Shown: piece after piece, positions 19,204-25,745 of the stretch
Layout: each line of letters opens with the position of its first letter
Position numbering within the stretch: the stretch's first letter is position 1
Assembly: GCA_027082875.1 (NCBI GenBank)
Contig: JALWTK010000101.1
Coordinates: 1 to 59,216, forward strand
Reading direction: 5' to 3'
Length of the DNA stretch: 59,216 nt
Source of the DNA: Sulfurimonas sp.
GTDB taxonomy: Bacteria > Campylobacterota > Campylobacteria > Campylobacterales > Sulfurimonadaceae
Notes under the pieces: generated by a model
The model's database searches: none
The model's input: only the letters and a program-made list of their open reading frames with translations
Told to the model about the DNA's origin: nothing
Translations under genes and position numbers: made by a program

Positions 19204-19223
19204 ATATCAATATATCTTGATAT
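19204..19223 (+). promoter_or_regulatory. ArsR/SmtB-type operator upstream of arsC
   Basis: A perfect inverted repeat of seven bases, ATATCAA (19204-19210) and TTGATAT (19217-19223), is separated by six bases. Its core ATCAA-N6-TTGAT is the pattern described for ArsR-family repressors such as cyanobacterial ArsR. The right arm contains the putative -35 box, so binding would block RNA polymerase. A partial extra copy of ATCAATAT lies just upstream. Identity of the bound regulator is inferred; no arsR gene is in this window. Confidence 0.65.
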
Positions 19224-19245
19224 TGTTATGCTTTTGTGCTACAAT
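19217..19245 (+). promoter_or_regulatory. Sigma70-type promoter of the arsC operon
   Basis: TTGATA (19217-19222) and TACAAT (19240-19245) are spaced by 17 bases, close to the consensus. Transcription should begin near 19252. An AAAGG ribosome-binding site follows at 19264-19268, six bases before the arsC ATG. The -35 box coincides with the right arm of the operator. Confidence 0.65.
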
Positions 19246-19274: not shown

Positions 19275-19682
19275 ATGAAAAAAAATGTTTTAATTCTTTG
19301 TACAGGAAACAGTTGCCGTTCTATTATGGCAGAGGCTCTTATAAATGCTAAGTTAGGTGAGTGTGTAGAAGCTCAGAGCTCTGGCGTTAAAGCGAGTGGG
19401 AAAGTTAATCCTACTGCTCAAGCACTCTTAGAAAAGCAAGGTTTATGGAAAGATGCATACCATTCTAAAGTTATAGAGACAGTTCTTGACACTGCATTTG
19501 ATCTTGTCGTCACGGTGTGTGATAATGCTAAAGAGACTTGCCCTATGTTTCCAAAGGCTATAAAAACTATCCACATGGGTTTTGAAGATCCAAGTGGGAA
19601 AGAAGATGAAGAGTATCTCAAAGCACTCGAACTTATCAATAAAAATCTTTTACCAATCATCAAAAAGGAGTTATGTTCATGA
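19275..19682 (+). CDS. arsC: Thioredoxin-coupled arsenate reductase ArsC
   Basis: Reduces arsenate to arsenite in the cytoplasm using a low-molecular-weight tyrosine phosphatase fold. The 135 residues have the P-loop CTGNSCRS beginning at Cys9. They also carry the redox pair Cys82 and Cys89 in VTVCDNAKETCP, the same spacing as the plasmid pI258 enzyme, so it should use thioredoxin rather than glutaredoxin. All three catalytic cysteines distinguish it from plain phosphatases. It is first in the operon, and its TGA overlaps the ATG of the next gene (ATGA). The adjacent thioredoxin-like protein may be its reductant. Confidence 0.95.
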   Translation: MKKNVLILCTGNSCRSIMAEALINAKLGECVEAQSSGVKASGKVNPTAQALLEKQGLWKDAYHSKVIETVLDTAFDLVVTVCDNAKETCPMFPKAIKTIHMGFEDPSGKEDEEYLKALELINKNLLPIIKKELCS

Positions 19683-19909
19683 AAATAGAAGTACTAGGCA
19701 CAGGCTGTAAAAAATGTATAGAGTTAGAGATGATAGTAAAACAAGCTATCGCTAAGAGTGGGAAGTTTGTCCAACTTGAAAAAGTAGATGACATCATGAA
19801 AATCATGGAGTATCAAGTAGTCAGCACTCCCGGGCTTGTTATAGATGGCAAGGTAGTGAGTACTGGGAAAGTGCTTAGTGTGAGTGAAGTTTTAGAGTTC
19901 ATAAAGTAA
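19679..19909 (+). CDS. Small thioredoxin-like protein, redox-active disulfide protein 2 family
   Basis: A 76-residue cytoplasmic thioredoxin-fold miniprotein. I choose ATG 19679 (MKIEVLGTGCKKC) over the upstream ATG 19673, because AAGGAG at 19665-19670 is then 8 bases away and the start overlaps the arsC stop. It has the active-site motif GCKKC near the N-terminus and the cis-proline loop STPGLVIDGKV. It is closely similar to the C-terminal domain of the protein encoded at 21948-22484, so the two are paralogues in one operon. Members of this family often occur beside ArsP/DUF318 permeases. Confidence 0.9.
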   Translation: MKIEVLGTGCKKCIELEMIVKQAIAKSGKFVQLEKVDDIMKIMEYQVVSTPGLVIDGKVVSTGKVLSVSEVLEFIK

Positions 19910-19913
19910 AGAG

Positions 19914-20588
19914 ATGTTAGAGACTTTAGTAGCGTTTGGGAGTGCATTTGGAGCAGGAAGTTTGACTGCTCTTGCGCCCTGCTCTTTAGTCTCTGTACCT
20001 CTTTTAGTTGGGGCTTCAGTAGCACTCAACAAAGATTTGATTGGGCGAAAGAAAGTACTCTACACTTATGCTTTTGCCTCACTCTTCGCTCTTGGAGTAA
20101 TGCTAAGCTTTTCGGTTCTTGGTCTTATAGTCGCTAAGTTTGATGGCTTTTTGAGCATCGCTCCTGCTTGGGCATATAATGTTGCTGGAGTCGTGAGTCT
20201 CTTCATCGCTCTGTATGCTTGGGGACTCTTTGGTGAAATCAACAAGTCTGGCATCATGCTCAGACTCATAAAGTTTCGCCTCTTTGGTGGCTTTCTTATC
20301 GGTATCATCTTTGGGCTTGTAAGTACTCCTTGTGCCTCAGCTCCACTTATCAGCATCATCACTTTAGCTGCTAGTAGTGGGTATGTTTATGCTTATGGAC
20401 TTATCTTGGCATTTGCATTAGGACACTCTATGCTACTTTTAGCTGCTGGTGTTTCAGTTGGTTTTGCTCAAAGCATCACTTCAAACCAGCGTTTAAGTAC
20501 ATTTTCAAACTACCTCAACAGACTCTTTGCTCTTATGCTTGGAGCTTTTGGGATTTACTTTTTTTATCAAGCATTTTTACAATACTAG
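19914..20588 (+). CDS. CcdA/DsbD-type transmembrane thiol-electron transporter
   Basis: A 224-residue integral membrane protein with six predicted helices. The two half-motifs of the family carry the redox cysteines: ALAPCSLV (Cys23) and VSTPCASAP (Cys140). Such proteins pass reducing equivalents from cytoplasmic thioredoxin to periplasmic thiol proteins. It starts 4 bases after the small thioredoxin-like gene and is followed 9 bases later by a secreted thioredoxin. The three genes can therefore form a complete relay across the membrane. Whether it also serves cytochrome c maturation is not known. Confidence 0.9.
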   Translation: MLETLVAFGSAFGAGSLTALAPCSLVSVPLLVGASVALNKDLIGRKKVLYTYAFASLFALGVMLSFSVLGLIVAKFDGFLSIAPAWAYNVAGVVSLFIALYAWGLFGEINKSGIMLRLIKFRLFGGFLIGIIFGLVSTPCASAPLISIITLAASSGYVYAYGLILAFALGHSMLLLAAGVSVGFAQSITSNQRLSTFSNYLNRLFALMLGAFGIYFFYQAFLQY

Positions 20589-20597
20589 GAGATTTTC

Positions 20598-20978
20598 ATG
20601 AAACTATTTACACTTATTTTTACTCTCATTTTCACATCACAACTCTTTGCGGAGACACCTATGCTAAGAGCCACACCTTACAAATATGTCCAATCAGCCA
20701 TAGGCAAGGGAAAACCTCACTTTGTAGAGCTAGGTTCAGATAGCTGTCACTCTTGTCAGATAATGGGAAGAGAACTCTATAAAGTTAAGCAGAAGAACCC
20801 TACATTTAACATAGAGTTTATCAATGTCAAACGCGAACGCCAAGCTGCATATGATTTTAAAATCAGAATGATACCTACACAGATTATTTTCGATGCACAG
20901 GGTAAGGAAGTTTACAGACATATAGGACTTCTCGGATCAAAAGAGTTACACCAACTTTTTCTAACTTACAACTTTTAA
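20598..20978 (+). CDS. Secreted thioredoxin-family protein
   Basis: A 126-residue protein with a signal peptide (KLFTLIFTLIFTSQLFAE) and a thioredoxin fold. The active site is SDSCHSCQIM (Cys50, Cys53), and RMIPTQIIFD carries the cis-proline. It most resembles SoxW/DsbD-gamma-like periplasmic thioredoxins that are kept reduced by CcdA proteins. It lies directly after the CcdA-like gene and before the permease, with a strong AGGAG site. A periplasmic reductant for the permease or for the exported FmdE-like protein is plausible but inferred. Confidence 0.88.
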   Translation: MKLFTLIFTLIFTSQLFAETPMLRATPYKYVQSAIGKGKPHFVELGSDSCHSCQIMGRELYKVKQKNPTFNIEFINVKRERQAAYDFKIRMIPTQIIFDAQGKEVYRHIGLLGSKELHQLFLTYNF

Positions 20979-20988
20979 AGGAGTCATT

Positions 20989-21936
20989 ATGTGGCAATCT
21001 GCAGTTGATTATTTAACACTAGATTTACTAGGTTTGAGTGGACACCTTGAAAAAAGTATAAACTTTTTCATCTACGATACTATCAAGATATGGTTTTTAC
21101 TTATCACTATTATTTTTGTGGTTTCTTACCTTAGAACTCACTTCAACACTGAGTATGTTCGTGCTCATCTCCAAGGTAAGTCGGAACTCTATGGCAATGT
21201 TTTAGCCGCACTTTTTGGAATCATTACTCCTTTTTGTAGCTGTTCGGCTATTCCCTTGTTCTTAGGATTTATTCAAGCTAGGATTCCTATCGGTGTGACA
21301 TTTTCCTTTCTCATCTCTTCGCCTATGAACAACGAGATAGCTATCGCCTTACTCTTTGGACTCTTTGGCTGGAAAGTTACGGCTATTTACATAGGATTTG
21401 GACTTTTAGTTGCCATCGTTGGTGGCTTTGTTATTGGTAAGTTTGGTATGGAGAAATATGTACTTATGGATGTCAAACCTATGGAGGGCGAGCTAGAAGA
21501 GGTGAAAATTTCTCTTACTATGAAAGAGCGTGCAAAAGAGGCATATGAATACACTGCCGATATTTTCAAGCAGATTTATCTCTATGTTCTCATCGGTGTT
21601 GGTGTTGGTGCCATCATCCATGGCTATATTCCAGCTACTTTCATAGCTCAGTATGCAGGAGCAGACAATCCCTTTGCTGTTTTAGTAGCAGTTATCATGG
21701 GAATCCCTATGTACTCAAACGCAGCGGGTGTGATGCCTCTAGTGGAAGTACTCACACAAAAAGGTATGCTTCTTGGAACTGCACTTTCGTTTATGATGGC
21801 AGTAACAGCACTAAGTCTACCAGAGGCGATGATACTTAAGAAAATACTTCATGTGAAACTTATCGCTACATTCTTTGGTATCGTAGGATTTGGGATTATC
21901 TGTATTGGGTATCTCTTTAACTTCATTTTAAAATAA
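20989..21936 (+). CDS. Permease of ArsP / DUF318 (SO_0444) family
   Basis: A 315-residue inner-membrane transporter with about eight to ten helices in two homologous halves. The first half carries TPFCSCSAIPLF (Cys83 and Cys85) and the second GIPMYSNAAGVMPL, both signatures of this permease family. Characterised relatives export trivalent organoarsenicals (ArsP of Campylobacter jejuni), and others have been linked to copper/zinc efflux. A cytoplasmic loop lies around 155-190. Its place between two thioredoxin-fold genes, in an arsC-headed operon, supports export of a thiol-reactive metalloid. Confidence 0.85.
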   Translation: MWQSAVDYLTLDLLGLSGHLEKSINFFIYDTIKIWFLLITIIFVVSYLRTHFNTEYVRAHLQGKSELYGNVLAALFGIITPFCSCSAIPLFLGFIQARIPIGVTFSFLISSPMNNEIAIALLFGLFGWKVTAIYIGFGLLVAIVGGFVIGKFGMEKYVLMDVKPMEGELEEVKISLTMKERAKEAYEYTADIFKQIYLYVLIGVGVGAIIHGYIPATFIAQYAGADNPFAVLVAVIMGIPMYSNAAGVMPLVEVLTQKGMLLGTALSFMMAVTALSLPEAMILKKILHVKLIATFFGIVGFGIICIGYLFNFILK

Positions 21937-21947
21937 AAGGAAAAAAT

Positions 21948-22484
21948 ATGTCAACAAATAGAATAGTTAGAATAGTAATCGGTTTAGCACTTATAGGATA
22001 TGGTCTTTATGCACATAACATCTGGTTTGGATTAGTTGGTCTCGCTCCACTAGCAACTGGACTCATCAACTGGTGTCCACTTGAAATGAAGATGGGAACT
22101 TGTGACCCAGCTTCTGGATGCTGTGCGACACCAACTAACAGTAAAAACTCTTCATGCTGTAGCACTCCTGCTCCACAAGCTACATGGTCGACAACAAAAA
22201 CAGAAGATAGTGCTTGCTGTAGCGATGGCTCTGAGTGCTGTAGTGAGGACACTATCAAGATAGAAGTCTTAGGAACTGGATGTAAAAAGTGTAAACTGCT
22301 CGAAGAAGTAGCAAACAAGGCTATTAAGGAGTTAGAGGGTGAATACTGTGTCATCAAGGTTGAGGATATAGAAAAGATAATGGCTTATGGCGTTACAAAC
22401 ACACCGGCTCTTGTTATAAATGGCGAAGTCAAAAGCAGTGGAAAACTCTTAGAGGTGCATGAAATCCAAGCACTTTTGAAGTAA
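21948..22484 (+). CDS. DUF2892 membrane - Cys-rich linker - thioredoxin-like fusion
   Basis: A 178-residue fusion. Residues 1-45 form a DUF2892-type membrane hairpin (RIVRIVIGLALIGYGLYAHN). Residues 46-100 are a linker with four adjacent Cys-Cys pairs (58-59, 70-71, 90-91, 97-98) plus Cys52. Residues 103-178 repeat the small GCxxC thioredoxin-like protein of this operon (GCKKC at 111-115, NTPALVINGEV). Vicinal cysteines are typical ligands of As(III) and other soft metals, so the linker may capture or hand over metal to the tethered redox domain. The function is inferred. The gene starts 11 bases after the permease. Confidence 0.8.
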   Translation: MSTNRIVRIVIGLALIGYGLYAHNIWFGLVGLAPLATGLINWCPLEMKMGTCDPASGCCATPTNSKNSSCCSTPAPQATWSTTKTEDSACCSDGSECCSEDTIKIEVLGTGCKKCKLLEEVANKAIKELEGEYCVIKVEDIEKIMAYGVTNTPALVINGEVKSSGKLLEVHEIQALLK

Positions 22485-22494
22485 GGTGGACAAG

Positions 22495-23208
22495 ATGAAA
22501 TTTCTTCTAGCTACACTTCTCAGCATACCCCTTGTACTTTTAGCCAATGAGAGTAGAAAACAAAATATTGACGATGCTTTTTATGAAAGCTCTGTCAAAA
22601 ATGCACCCAATGCCAAACCTATCCTTGTCAAAGATACAGATAGTGCTATGGGAAGATACAACCTTCATGCAAAAAAGCTAGACATTAAAACACTGGCACG
22701 AGCACATGGACACCTCTGTGATGGGCTTGTTCTTGCCTATGTAGAACTCTCAAACACACTGCCAAAACTCTTTAATGATAGCATTGTAGATAGAACAGAC
22801 ATAAGAATCGTGGCAAAGAACAGTCCCTGCCTTGTAGATACATCCGCACTTATGAGTGGTGCTCGTATAAACCATAAAACACTTTCACTTGACAACTCTT
22901 TAGGTGGTAGTTTTATAGTGCAACGTATCTCAACAGGTCAAACATATAAGGTCTCACTTGCTGACAAAGGTTTTTTAAAAGCCCTCAAAACAGAAGAGGA
23001 AAAGATAAAGGCAAAAGCAAATAAAGATGTCACTCCAAAAGATATAGATGAAGTCGAAGCTCTCGCGTTTAAAGCGATGAAGCATATGCTTAACACTGAT
23101 CCAAAAAAACTTCTCAAAATAACAGAGCTTAAGAACTACCACTACAAGTTCAAGATAGATGCCATAGGCTCTCGTAGCGACATAGTCAATAAAAACATAG
23201 GAAGATAA
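22495..23208 (+). CDS. Secreted FmdE-family protein
   Basis: A 237-residue exported protein. I use ATG 22495, giving MKFLLATLLSIPLVLLA as a signal peptide with AAGGTGG five bases upstream; a GTG at 22486 is less likely. The FmdE-like core carries HGHLCDGLVLAY (71-82) and a second conserved cysteine in NSPCLVD (Cys112). FmdE domains come from formylmethanofuran dehydrogenase clusters and bind metal or molybdate-related ligands; secreted versions in bacteria have no settled role. Its place beside metal and thiol genes suggests a periplasmic metal-binding function. Confidence 0.8.
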   Translation: MKFLLATLLSIPLVLLANESRKQNIDDAFYESSVKNAPNAKPILVKDTDSAMGRYNLHAKKLDIKTLARAHGHLCDGLVLAYVELSNTLPKLFNDSIVDRTDIRIVAKNSPCLVDTSALMSGARINHKTLSLDNSLGGSFIVQRISTGQTYKVSLADKGFLKALKTEEEKIKAKANKDVTPKDIDEVEALAFKAMKHMLNTDPKKLLKITELKNYHYKFKIDAIGSRSDIVNKNIGR

Positions 23209-23210
23209 TC

Positions 23211-24104
23211 ATGAGCGAACATCACCACCATCACGATGTAAGTGGTAAAAACCTCTTCATCACCATACTTTTAAATGTCATAATAACAGTTTCACAAATA
23301 GTCGGAGGAATACTCTCAGGTTCTTTAGCACTTCTGAGTGATGCTATGCATAACTTTAGCGATGTGCTTGCTCTTATTATCGCCTATGTTGCTAACCGTT
23401 TAGCAGCCAGACCAAATAGCCAAAGTAAAACATTTGGCTATAAACGTGCAGAAATTTTAGCTGCACTCTTTAATGCCTCTGTACTTATTGGAATAGCTAT
23501 ATTTCTCATCATCGAGTCTTTTCATAAGTTCTACCACCCTGAAGCTATCAACTCCCTTTGGGTTATAGGGCTTGGAACTTTGAGTATCATCTTAAATGCA
23601 GCGAGTGTACTCCTAGTCAAAGATGATGCCCATGACAATATGAACATAAAAGCAGCCTACCTGCACCTACTCACAGATGTTATGACAAGTGTGGCAGTTG
23701 TTGGTGGCGGAGTACTCATGTACTACTTCGGACTCTTTTGGATTGACCCTGTTATCTCTGCACTTATAGCAGTTTATCTCATCTGGGCATCTTTTGGTCT
23801 TGTCAAAGAGAGTAGTGCTATACTGATGCAGTTTACTCCGGAGGAGATAAACTTAGAAGAGGTGATAGCGAGTATTGAAGCAGAGGAAAAGATAGCAAAT
23901 GTCCACCACATCCACATCTGGAAACTTAGTGATCACCGTATCCACCTCGAAGCACACCTAGATTTTAAAGAAGATTTAGCACTCTCTGAGTCAAACGCCA
24001 TCATCATTGACCTAGAAAAAAAGCTACACGACAGTTTTGAGATAGAGCACACTACTTTTCAGTGTGAGTTTGAGAGAGATGATGCTAAGGATATAATTAG
24101 ATAA
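23211..24104 (+). CDS. Cation diffusion facilitator metal exporter (CzcD/ZitB-like)
   Basis: A 297-residue proton-coupled exporter for Zn(II) or related divalent cations. It opens with a metal-binding stretch MSEHHHHHDV and has six membrane helices. The paired transport-site motifs are SDAMHNFSD in helix 2 and HLLTDVMTS in helix 5. The cytoplasmic C-terminal domain (about 210-290) contains HHIHIWKLSDHRIHLEAH. It starts 2 bases after the FmdE-like gene and ends the operon. The exact metal is not determinable. Confidence 0.93.
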   Translation: MSEHHHHHDVSGKNLFITILLNVIITVSQIVGGILSGSLALLSDAMHNFSDVLALIIAYVANRLAARPNSQSKTFGYKRAEILAALFNASVLIGIAIFLIIESFHKFYHPEAINSLWVIGLGTLSIILNAASVLLVKDDAHDNMNIKAAYLHLLTDVMTSVAVVGGGVLMYYFGLFWIDPVISALIAVYLIWASFGLVKESSAILMQFTPEEINLEEVIASIEAEEKIANVHHIHIWKLSDHRIHLEAHLDFKEDLALSESNAIIIDLEKKLHDSFEIEHTTFQCEFERDDAKDIIR

Positions 24105-24160: not shown

Positions 24161-24191
24161 AATTACAATAAAAAATTTCAAGGTGGATTTT

Positions 24192-25745
24192 ATGGACTTC
24201 CCTATAGAAACTGAAATAATTTTACTTTTGATGGTTATCATATCTGTAGCTATGGGTGTGAGATATTATAGTAAACTTCCCTATACAATAGCACTCATTT
24301 TTGCAGGTATTATCTTAAGTTTTTTTGATATATTTCCAGATATACGCCTCACCCCAGAACTCATTTTTCATGTTTTACTGCCACCCTTACTCTTTGAAGC
24401 AGCCTTTAATCTTAATGCAAATGAGCTAAAAAAGAATACAAAACCTATCTTGACTTATGCTATATTTGGGGTAATTATCGCAGTGCTTACGACAGGCTCT
24501 CTACTTTATGGCTCTTTCTCTCTCTTTCATATAGATACGACTATGCCACTCATTGCCTGTCTCTTGTTTGGTGCAGTTATATCTTCTACGGACCCTATCT
24601 CTGTACTAGCTATCTTTAAACAACTTGGTGTTCCCACTAGACTCTCATCTATTATTGAGGGAGAAAGTCTCTTTAATGATGGTGTATCTGTTGTTGTCTA
24701 TGGAATTGTTCTCACTCTTATCACAACACATAGTGATTTTAGTCTGATTCATGGGCTTAAAGAGTTTATCATAGTTGCTTTTGGAGGAGCTATAACAGGT
24801 GCTATTCTTGGACTTACTTTTTCAAAGATAACAGCTCTTGTAGATGACCATCTCATAGAGATAACACTCACAACAATCGTAACATACCTTACTTATATAG
24901 TAGCAGAGTATTTTGAAGTCTCTGGGGTAATAGCGGTCATAGTTGCAGGACTCATGGTAGGAAACTATGGAACAAAAATAGGTATGAGTCCAACCACAAG
25001 AGTATCGGTAAAAGATTTTTGGGACTATATAGCTTTTCTCATCAACTCTATAGTCTTTTTTATTATCGGTTTGGAAGTAGGGATTACAAATATTTTTACA
25101 AATCTACACTATATCGCTATAGCTATTGTGGCAGTATTAATAGGGCGAGTTGTATCTGTAATGCTCTTAACACAGTTTGTCAACAAGATAGATCAGAAGA
25201 TTAGTTTTAAATGGCAGGCAGTATTTGTATGGGGTGGTGTCAGAGGTGCTTTAGCTATGGCTCTTGCCCTTGCCATCCCTAAAGAGTATGAGTATAGAGA
25301 TATTATTTTAGTGATGACGTTTGGTGTTGTCGGCTTTTCCTTGATAGTCCAAGGACTCACAATAGGAAAACTTTTACACTTTTTACATATTGGGGGAAGA
25401 GATAAAAACCTTGATACCTATGAGCTTGAAAAAGGTAAACTTATAGCTATTAGCGGTGCTTCTGAGGAGCTAGAACTCATGCACAGCGAAGCACTTATAT
25501 CAGAACATATCTATAAACTTTTATCGGAGCACTATACAAAAGATATACAGAGAGCAAAAGAGACTATTGAACAAATATCACATGACCCAAATGTAAAAGA
25601 TTATGAGTTTAAAACCTCCTTTAAAAGACTACTTCTTAAAGAGAAAGACTCTGTACAAGACTCTATGAAACATGGCATTATCTCTTCAAATGCGGGGGAG
25701 AAAATTATTAACACTATCAATAAAGAGATTTTACAACTACACTAA
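24192..25745 (+). CDS. Na+(K+)/H+ antiporter, NhaP/CPA1 family
   Basis: A 517-residue membrane antiporter for pH and sodium homeostasis. ATG 24192 is preferred over GTG 24183 because AAGGTGG (24180-24186) is five bases upstream of it. About 12 helices span residues 5-400. CPA1 hallmarks include GAVISSTDPISVLAIF, EGESLFNDGVSVVVYG (ion-binding ND motif) and VWGGVRGALAMALAL. The soluble C-terminal tail (about 410-517) is helical and may regulate activity. It appears to be a separate transcription unit. Confidence 0.93.
   Translation: MDFPIETEIILLLMVIISVAMGVRYYSKLPYTIALIFAGIILSFFDIFPDIRLTPELIFHVLLPPLLFEAAFNLNANELKKNTKPILTYAIFGVIIAVLTTGSLLYGSFSLFHIDTTMPLIACLLFGAVISSTDPISVLAIFKQLGVPTRLSSIIEGESLFNDGVSVVVYGIVLTLITTHSDFSLIHGLKEFIIVAFGGAITGAILGLTFSKITALVDDHLIEITLTTIVTYLTYIVAEYFEVSGVIAVIVAGLMVGNYGTKIGMSPTTRVSVKDFWDYIAFLINSIVFFIIGLEVGITNIFTNLHYIAIAIVAVLIGRVVSVMLLTQFVNKIDQKISFKWQAVFVWGGVRGALAMALALAIPKEYEYRDIILVMTFGVVGFSLIVQGLTIGKLLHFLHIGGRDKNLDTYELEKGKLIAISGASEELELMHSEALISEHIYKLLSEHYTKDIQRAKETIEQISHDPNVKDYEFKTSFKRLLLKEKDSVQDSMKHGIISSNAGEKIINTINKEILQLH

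Follow-up and report, generated by a model that had tools for sequence, protein, structure and literature searches.

A probable arsenic-resistance operon of Sulfurimonas that combines a CcdA/thioredoxin pair and an ArsP permease with a secreted FmdE-like protein

We examined a run of eight genes in a Sulfurimonas sp. genome (assembly GCA_027082875.1); the window, by which we mean the whole stretch of DNA that was analysed, comprises 59,216 nucleotides of contig JALWTK010000101.1. A prediction made earlier from the letters of the sequence had read the run as an arsenate reductase operon built around a transmembrane thiol relay and a permease. We find that the eight genes very probably form an arsenic-resistance operon and belong to an ArsR regulon that is split between sites and also takes in arsB. 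Its gene for a secreted FmdE-like protein is an unusual part whose link to arsenic the original prediction missed, and it is a new element.

Results

Eight tightly packed genes

The run consists of eight open reading frames on the + strand that span 19275-24104, with intergenic gaps of, in order, -10, 4, 9, 10, 11, 1 and 2 bases, which bears out the tight packing described earlier. The gene families named at that time are also right, as judged by Pfam and NCBIfam profile matches of all eight products. The features are:

19206..19221, no strand: ArsR-type operator ATCAATATATCTTGAT, a match to ATCAAN6TTGAT
19217..19245, + strand: sigma-70-like promoter TTGATA-N17-TACAAT with TG before the -10 element (consensus scan, 10/12 matches, suggestive only)
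19275..19682, + strand: ArsC, arsenate reductase of the low-molecular-weight protein tyrosine phosphatase type, with C9TGNSCR, C82 and C89 (PF01451, 68.6 bits)
19673..19909, + strand: ArsE1, small cytosolic thioredoxin-like protein with GCKKC (TIGR00412, 96.7 bits, cut-off 62)
19914..20588, + strand: CcdA-like transmembrane thiol carrier (PF02683, DsbD_TM, 40.2 bits, cut-off 27.1)
20598..20978, + strand: secreted thioredoxin-like protein with a signal peptide and CHSC (PF13098 and PF00085, both over cut-off)
20989..21936, + strand: ArsP_1-family permease with a TPFCSCS motif (PF03773, 233.7 bits, cut-off 32.3)
21948..22484, + strand: fusion of a YgaP-like_TM (DUF2892) hairpin, a Cys-rich linker and an ArsE domain with GCKKC (PF11127, PF13192 and TIGR00412, the last with 97.0 bits, cut-off 62)
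22486..23208, + strand: secreted FmdE-like protein with a predicted signal peptide and H74-G-H76-x-C78 ... C115 (PF02663, 51.6 bits, cut-off 22.9)
23211..24104, + strand: CDF cation exporter with HxxxD pairs in two transmembrane segments (Zn-type), a His-rich N-terminus and ZT_dimer (TIGR01297, 254.6 bits, cut-off 82.35)

A shared operator and a recurrent neighbourhood

The operator 16-mer lies 53 bp upstream of the operon, overlaps the sigma-70-like promoter and is the single match to its pattern within the window, where 0.26 would be expected. On another contig of the genome, C177, arsR and arsB each stand behind the ArsR-type box ATCAATATATMTTGAT. The arsR there is an orphan, and the box 47 bp before it (C177:3012-3027) is the identical 16-mer, read on the other strand; the box 52 bp upstream of arsB (C177:5342-5357) is ATCAATATATATTGAT, which differs by one base. 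The ArsR encoded there carries CVCDL and is the sole HTH_5 protein found in the genome; the ArsB matches PF02040 with E=4e-143. Across the 2.34 Mb assembly there are nine ATCAAN6TTGAT boxes and ten matches to a reversed control pattern, and therefore the total carries no weight of its own; what speaks for the operator is the shared spacer and where the boxes stand. Six further matches, on C3, C11, C117, C169, C171 and C202, have other spacers and are likely to be chance occurrences given the control count.

The operator is also kept in relatives. We searched 220 class genomes for the permease and compared the neighbours within 4 kb of 41 orthologues (about 55-92% identity); a homology call, here and in the survey of FmdE-like relatives below, is a phmmer match of at least 28 bits to a single query. 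At 26 of the 41 loci a box lies at most 160 bp upstream of an ars-family open reading frame, its spacer nearly always K-ATAT-M or close to it, and in vent Campylobacterota boxes stand directly before operons with ArsP or ArsE. Locus L118 carries arsR-arsB-arsC-arsP-DUF2892/ArsE-ArsE-fmdE in a single run. Because the box is common to the operon, arsR and the gene of the arsenite exporter, the most fitting reading of the window operon is as one branch of an ars regulon spread over separate sites. It is apparently switched by the cell's arsenic sensor, and both ArsR binding and induction by As(III) are predicted at the operator.

The original prediction had stated that ArsB and Acr3 are lacking. 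For the operon itself this is correct; for the genome it fails as regards ArsB, whose gene lies on C177 behind the same operator. No Acr3 was found in the genome, the assembly of which is 93% complete. With arsB under the same box, we reject the operon as a stand-alone ArsP route that works without an arsenite exporter.

The co-occurrence survey that the prediction had called for came out in its favour. ArsC lies near 39 of the 41 permeases, ArsE near 37, ArsR near 33 and ArsB near 29, a real and recurrent ars operon, so that the grouping of the genes is more than chance. CcdA and a secreted thioredoxin are each found near nine permeases and travel together at all nine loci, and a CDF exporter is found near five. 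The window permease, present in a single copy in the source genome, combines its PF03773 match with the C(S/T)C motif and is predicted to export trivalent organoarsenicals; that ars operons may carry ArsP is well known (PMC4435449). Beyond the operon, 78 bases past the CDF gene and on the same strand, lies a gene for a CPA1-type Na+/H+ antiporter (24183-25745). No terminator-like site was found between the two genes, and therefore read-through is possible.

The secreted FmdE-like protein and its relatives

The FmdE-like protein combines a PF02663 match above the Pfam cut-off with the HGHxC and distal Cys signature and with an FmdE fold. The best fold matches of its structure model (pLDDT 92) are the three solved FmdE proteins, 2glz with Z 14.1 over 142 residues and 2gvi and 3d00 with Z 12.2; a sequence search of the PDB with the protein or its profile gave no match. 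The equivalent His, His, Cys and Cys of 2glz and 2gvi coordinate Zn or Ni within a cleft, and one FmdE crystal holds an unidentified ligand attached to the second Cys (PMC2954224). The conserved H74, H76, C78, C115 and D118 match the metal ligands of 2glz and 2gvi, the two cysteines being the only ones in the protein, and the invariant columns of its alignment with relatives (A2) are H74, G75, H76, C78, D102-R103-T104, C115, D118 and R127. The window protein shares with the solved members the thioredoxin-like core and the metal site, but it differs from them in being secreted, in an N-terminal region of its own (DT..GRY) and in the lack of a zinc finger, and is about 13% identical to them. Nor does it lie in a formylmethanofuran dehydrogenase operon: its link is to ars genes and not to methanogenesis.

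Among the other 219 class genomes we found no relative of the FmdE-like protein at E<=0.001, and the full-length DUF2892-ArsE fusion likewise had no match outside the source genome among the 220; a wider contig collection was therefore searched. Distant PF02663 paralogues exist in many class genomes, and the source genome has a second, distant one of its own (G000:C151:10085-10531), outside any ars context. Two plasmid relatives were found, one of them inside an Alicyclobacillus arsDA-arsRBC-trxB cluster, and the alignment of the window protein with these two retrieved 195 relatives on genome contigs, of which 80 were kept. The nearest are 72-82% identical and come largely from metagenome-assembled genomes of Sulfurimonas/Sulfurovum type; viral contigs yielded no relative.

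An ars gene lies within 6.5 kb at 70 of the 80 FmdE-subfamily loci (66 by a stricter list) and at none of 20 loci that hold other PF02663 paralogues, the control being confined to Campylobacterota and the 80 loci not phylogenetically independent. The link extends over about 14 named phyla, and the gene tree is deep. Among the neighbours, ArsG, ArsF, Acr3 and ArsD score above their NCBIfam cut-offs; a CDF gene is near 13 of the 80. In a literature search covering few subscription journals no paper was found that links the PF02663 family to arsenic. One mention that pairs FmdE with arsenic proved unrelated, and an Acidiplasma gene that bears the subunit name drops more than 14-fold on each of sulfur, pyrite and arsenopyrite and is therefore not evidence for arsenic. 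We consider it likely that the subfamily is functionally tied to arsenic handling.

Most diderm relatives carry Sec signals and some have Tat-like ones (L139, L146). Cytosolic-looking forms occur in Bacillota, Thermoplasmatota, Chloroflexota and three diderm loci (L129, L136, L143), the cytosolic call following a simple hydrophobicity rule and the cytosolic set having been defined after inspection of the sequences. ArsP is nearby in 49 of 63 loci with secreted forms and in none of the 17 with cytosolic forms, 13 of which have ArsB, ArsA, ArsD or Acr3. In keeping with the relay proposed earlier, CcdA/ArsG/thioredoxin genes accompany secreted forms (25 of 63) and never cytosolic ones (0/17; p=9e-4, uncorrected). 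On the tree, the contrast in secretion and relay amounts to 3-4 independent switches, in the same direction wherever the neighbour differs.

The FmdE-like genes also have companions of other kinds. Most Bacteroidota proteins of the subfamily are about 430 amino acids long and carry a signal peptide and an N-terminal acetolactate-decarboxylase-like domain (L155, L160, L164, L170, L173, L179, L182, L187, L188 and L192-L195; PF03306 confirmed in L182). A DsrE-like protein of about 117 amino acids, whose DsrE match is just below cut-off, is encoded directly beside the gene in ars clusters of Bacillota and archaea (L115, L154, L156, L157, L159, L161-L163, L175, L177, L180). A rhodanese is near it at 15 loci, including L114, L120-L122, L125, L138-L140 and L146, the L140 copy having a Cys-rich, CC-containing tail, and an OsmC-family protein lies within 2.5 kb at 10 (L138, L140, L159, L173, L179, L182, L188, L191, L192, L194). 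A CT0912-like/ABM-like protein recurs in the islands L116, L120-L122 and L154, and has a Tat-type leader in L121.

The redox genes

The CcdA-like protein, over the cut-off of its carrier family, has exactly two cysteines, C23 (PCS) and C140 (PCA), both in predicted transmembrane segments, and C50 and C53 are the sole cysteines of the secreted thioredoxin. The FmdE-like protein, CcdA and the secreted thioredoxin thus each hold just their two functional cysteines, and the conserved pairs that a thiol relay needs are present in the products of the operon. Both ArsE1 and the fusion satisfy TIGR00412 (ArsE, redox-active disulfide 2). The fusion contains 13 cysteines, with four CC pairs in the linker, and is predicted to be cytosolic and tethered to the membrane; its architecture is also seen in L116-L121. 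This Cys-rich tethered fusion is a new element.

The redox module as such is already known. CcdA, thioredoxin and redox-active disulfide 2 were described in 2010 in ars operons with arsC, in 8 instances in 7 organisms, and were proposed to be a redox system of the arsenate reductase (PMC2963123). All four genes of the arrangement defined there are contiguous in the window. The operon differs in that ArsP, the tethered ArsE fusion, the secreted FmdE-like protein and the CDF exporter are joined to them, while the genome keeps arsB and arsR elsewhere, behind the shared operator.

Discussion

At the level of sequence, the evidence consists of the operon and its families, the operator common to arsR and arsB, the linkage of FmdE-like genes to ars genes, the conserved metal site and the cysteine chemistry of the products. 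We favour, with a probability of roughly 0.55, a model in which the operon exports arsenicals and a relay of CcdA and thioredoxin maintains a periplasmic FmdE-like protein in the reduced state; the substrates, the path of the electrons and the function of the FmdE-like protein are what we infer. ArsC would reduce arsenate, and arsenite would exit through the ArsB encoded elsewhere behind the same operator, and ArsP would be another exporter, for a trivalent arsenical that is probably organic or bound to thiols. In the cytosol, ArsE1 and the Cys-rich fusion anchored to the membrane (ArsE2) may serve as thiol donors or carriers. CcdA would hand electrons outward across the membrane to the secreted thioredoxin. 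This in turn would hold C78 and C115 of the FmdE-like protein reduced; the protein, which has no other thiols, would be the natural periplasmic client. With a thioredoxin-like fold and a His2Cys2 metal site, it may bind or process the exported arsenical, such that this neither re-enters the cell nor poisons envelope thiols, while the CDF protein would export zinc and perhaps also supply the metal site. That the relay acts on the FmdE-like protein is a tentative step, with the odds somewhat against it. Of the transmembrane thiol relay first proposed, the recurrent operon, the travelling pair and the cysteine pairs stand, whereas the supposed absence of ArsB does not, and the relay module is not new.

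Several observations weigh against this model. ArsC has the P-loop Cys and the Cys82/Cys89 pair of the pI258 type, yet misses the NCBIfam equivalog cut-offs (85.7 bits against 174.3 for arsC_pI258, 91.7 against 215 for a further equivalog); it appears to work like a thioredoxin-coupled pI258 enzyme without being filed as one. Transmembrane electron flow was held less likely in the 2010 study since ArsC is cytoplasmic (PMC2963123). The metal found at the FmdE site in crystals, of other members of the family, is Zn or Ni, and arsenic binding there is putative. For ArsM the genome gives just sub-cut-off matches, and therefore has no evident internal source of methylarsenite; a methylated substrate would come from outside, or the substrate would be a different one. 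When corrected for phylogeny, the association of secretion with ArsP or the relay comes down to 3 pairs on supported branches and is not significant. Is the relay, finally, a fixed part of such operons? Neither CcdA, ArsG nor thioredoxin is near 38 of the 63 secreted-FmdE loci or near 32 of the 41 ArsP loci, and therefore the relay is not obligatory, and other reductants must serve at the related loci, the majority, that do without it. The relay is accessory rather than universal.

Could the redox genes serve ArsC alone? ArsE1 and the thioredoxins would then recycle the cytosolic reductase, CcdA and the secreted thioredoxin would be passengers or maintain thiols in general, and the FmdE-like protein would be a separate zinc handler. 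The near-constant presence of ArsC and ArsE at the ArsP loci fits this explanation, as do the C9/C82/C89 triad of thioredoxin-coupled enzymes and the role assigned to the redox genes in PMC2963123. We nevertheless regard it as unlikely, because a signal peptide on the thioredoxin and two transmembrane cysteines in CcdA are needless for a cytosolic ArsC, and because none of the 17 loci with cytosolic FmdE-like forms has relay genes.

The arsEFG system, attributed to Chen, Zhang and Rosen (2019), reportedly comprises a cytosolic ArsE, a CcdA-like membrane protein and a secreted thioredoxin-like protein. The window encodes the same three kinds of protein in the same three-part layout, its ArsE domains are over cut-off, and true ArsG (277.8 bits, cut-off 200) and ArsF (113.2, cut-off 60) are encoded close to FmdE-like genes of other phyla, all of which would suit a module that handles aromatic arsenicals with the CcdA-like permease itself as the exporter. 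The window CcdA, though, scores 25.8 bits against the cut-off of 200 in the ArsG model NF040495 and matches DsbD_TM, whereas ArsG matches DsbD_2, and the secreted thioredoxin has no match to the ArsF model. We reject this CcdA as ArsG, and consider a module of the ArsEFG kind improbable.

Equally improbable is a zinc or soft-metal system of the envelope, in which the ArsP-family permease and the CDF protein export metal, the FmdE-like protein is a zinc protein of the periplasm and arsC merely lies alongside: the HxxxD pairs of the CDF protein, a weak, sub-cut-off similarity of ArsP to a Cu/Zn exporter model and the Zn or Ni of FmdE crystals, together with the metal-ion transporters that most PF02663 genes adjoin (PMC2954224), speak for it, whereas the operator common to arsR and arsB, the ArsR, ArsB and ArsC neighbours across the class and the Bacillota FmdE relatives that keep company with ArsA, ArsD and ArsB, the usual ars partners and not zinc exporters, speak against it.

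Within the Campylobacterota, the ars operon of Campylobacter jejuni likewise places among ars genes a permease of the ArsP family that has a C(S/T)C motif, with ArsY/Acr3 as the companion exporter where the source genome has ArsB. That four-gene operon is not known to contain FmdE or CcdA. Export of organoarsenicals by the C. jejuni ArsP is reported, in the account that PMC4435449 gives of Shen et al. 2014.

Going beyond the window, the FmdE-like subfamily may be an unrecognised arsenic-resistance determinant that extends from Bacteroidota to Thermoplasmatota, with a His2Cys2 zinc-thiolate site that would capture or convert trivalent arsenicals, in the periplasm where the exporter is ArsP (and then often reduced by CcdA or ArsG and thioredoxin) and in the cytosol where it is ArsA, ArsD or ArsB; for this wider proposal the chances seem to us a little short of even. 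Were it true, in about fourteen phyla the genes annotated as 'formylmethanofuran dehydrogenase subunit E' would carry the wrong name, and the ars toolkit would gain a component that is widespread and has a defined metal site. That the compartment changes with the type of exporter would be an unusual natural experiment on the site of arsenical handling. The CcdA/thioredoxin genes long noted in ars operons would, moreover, acquire a possible client in the periplasm, a role closed to a cytoplasmic ArsC.

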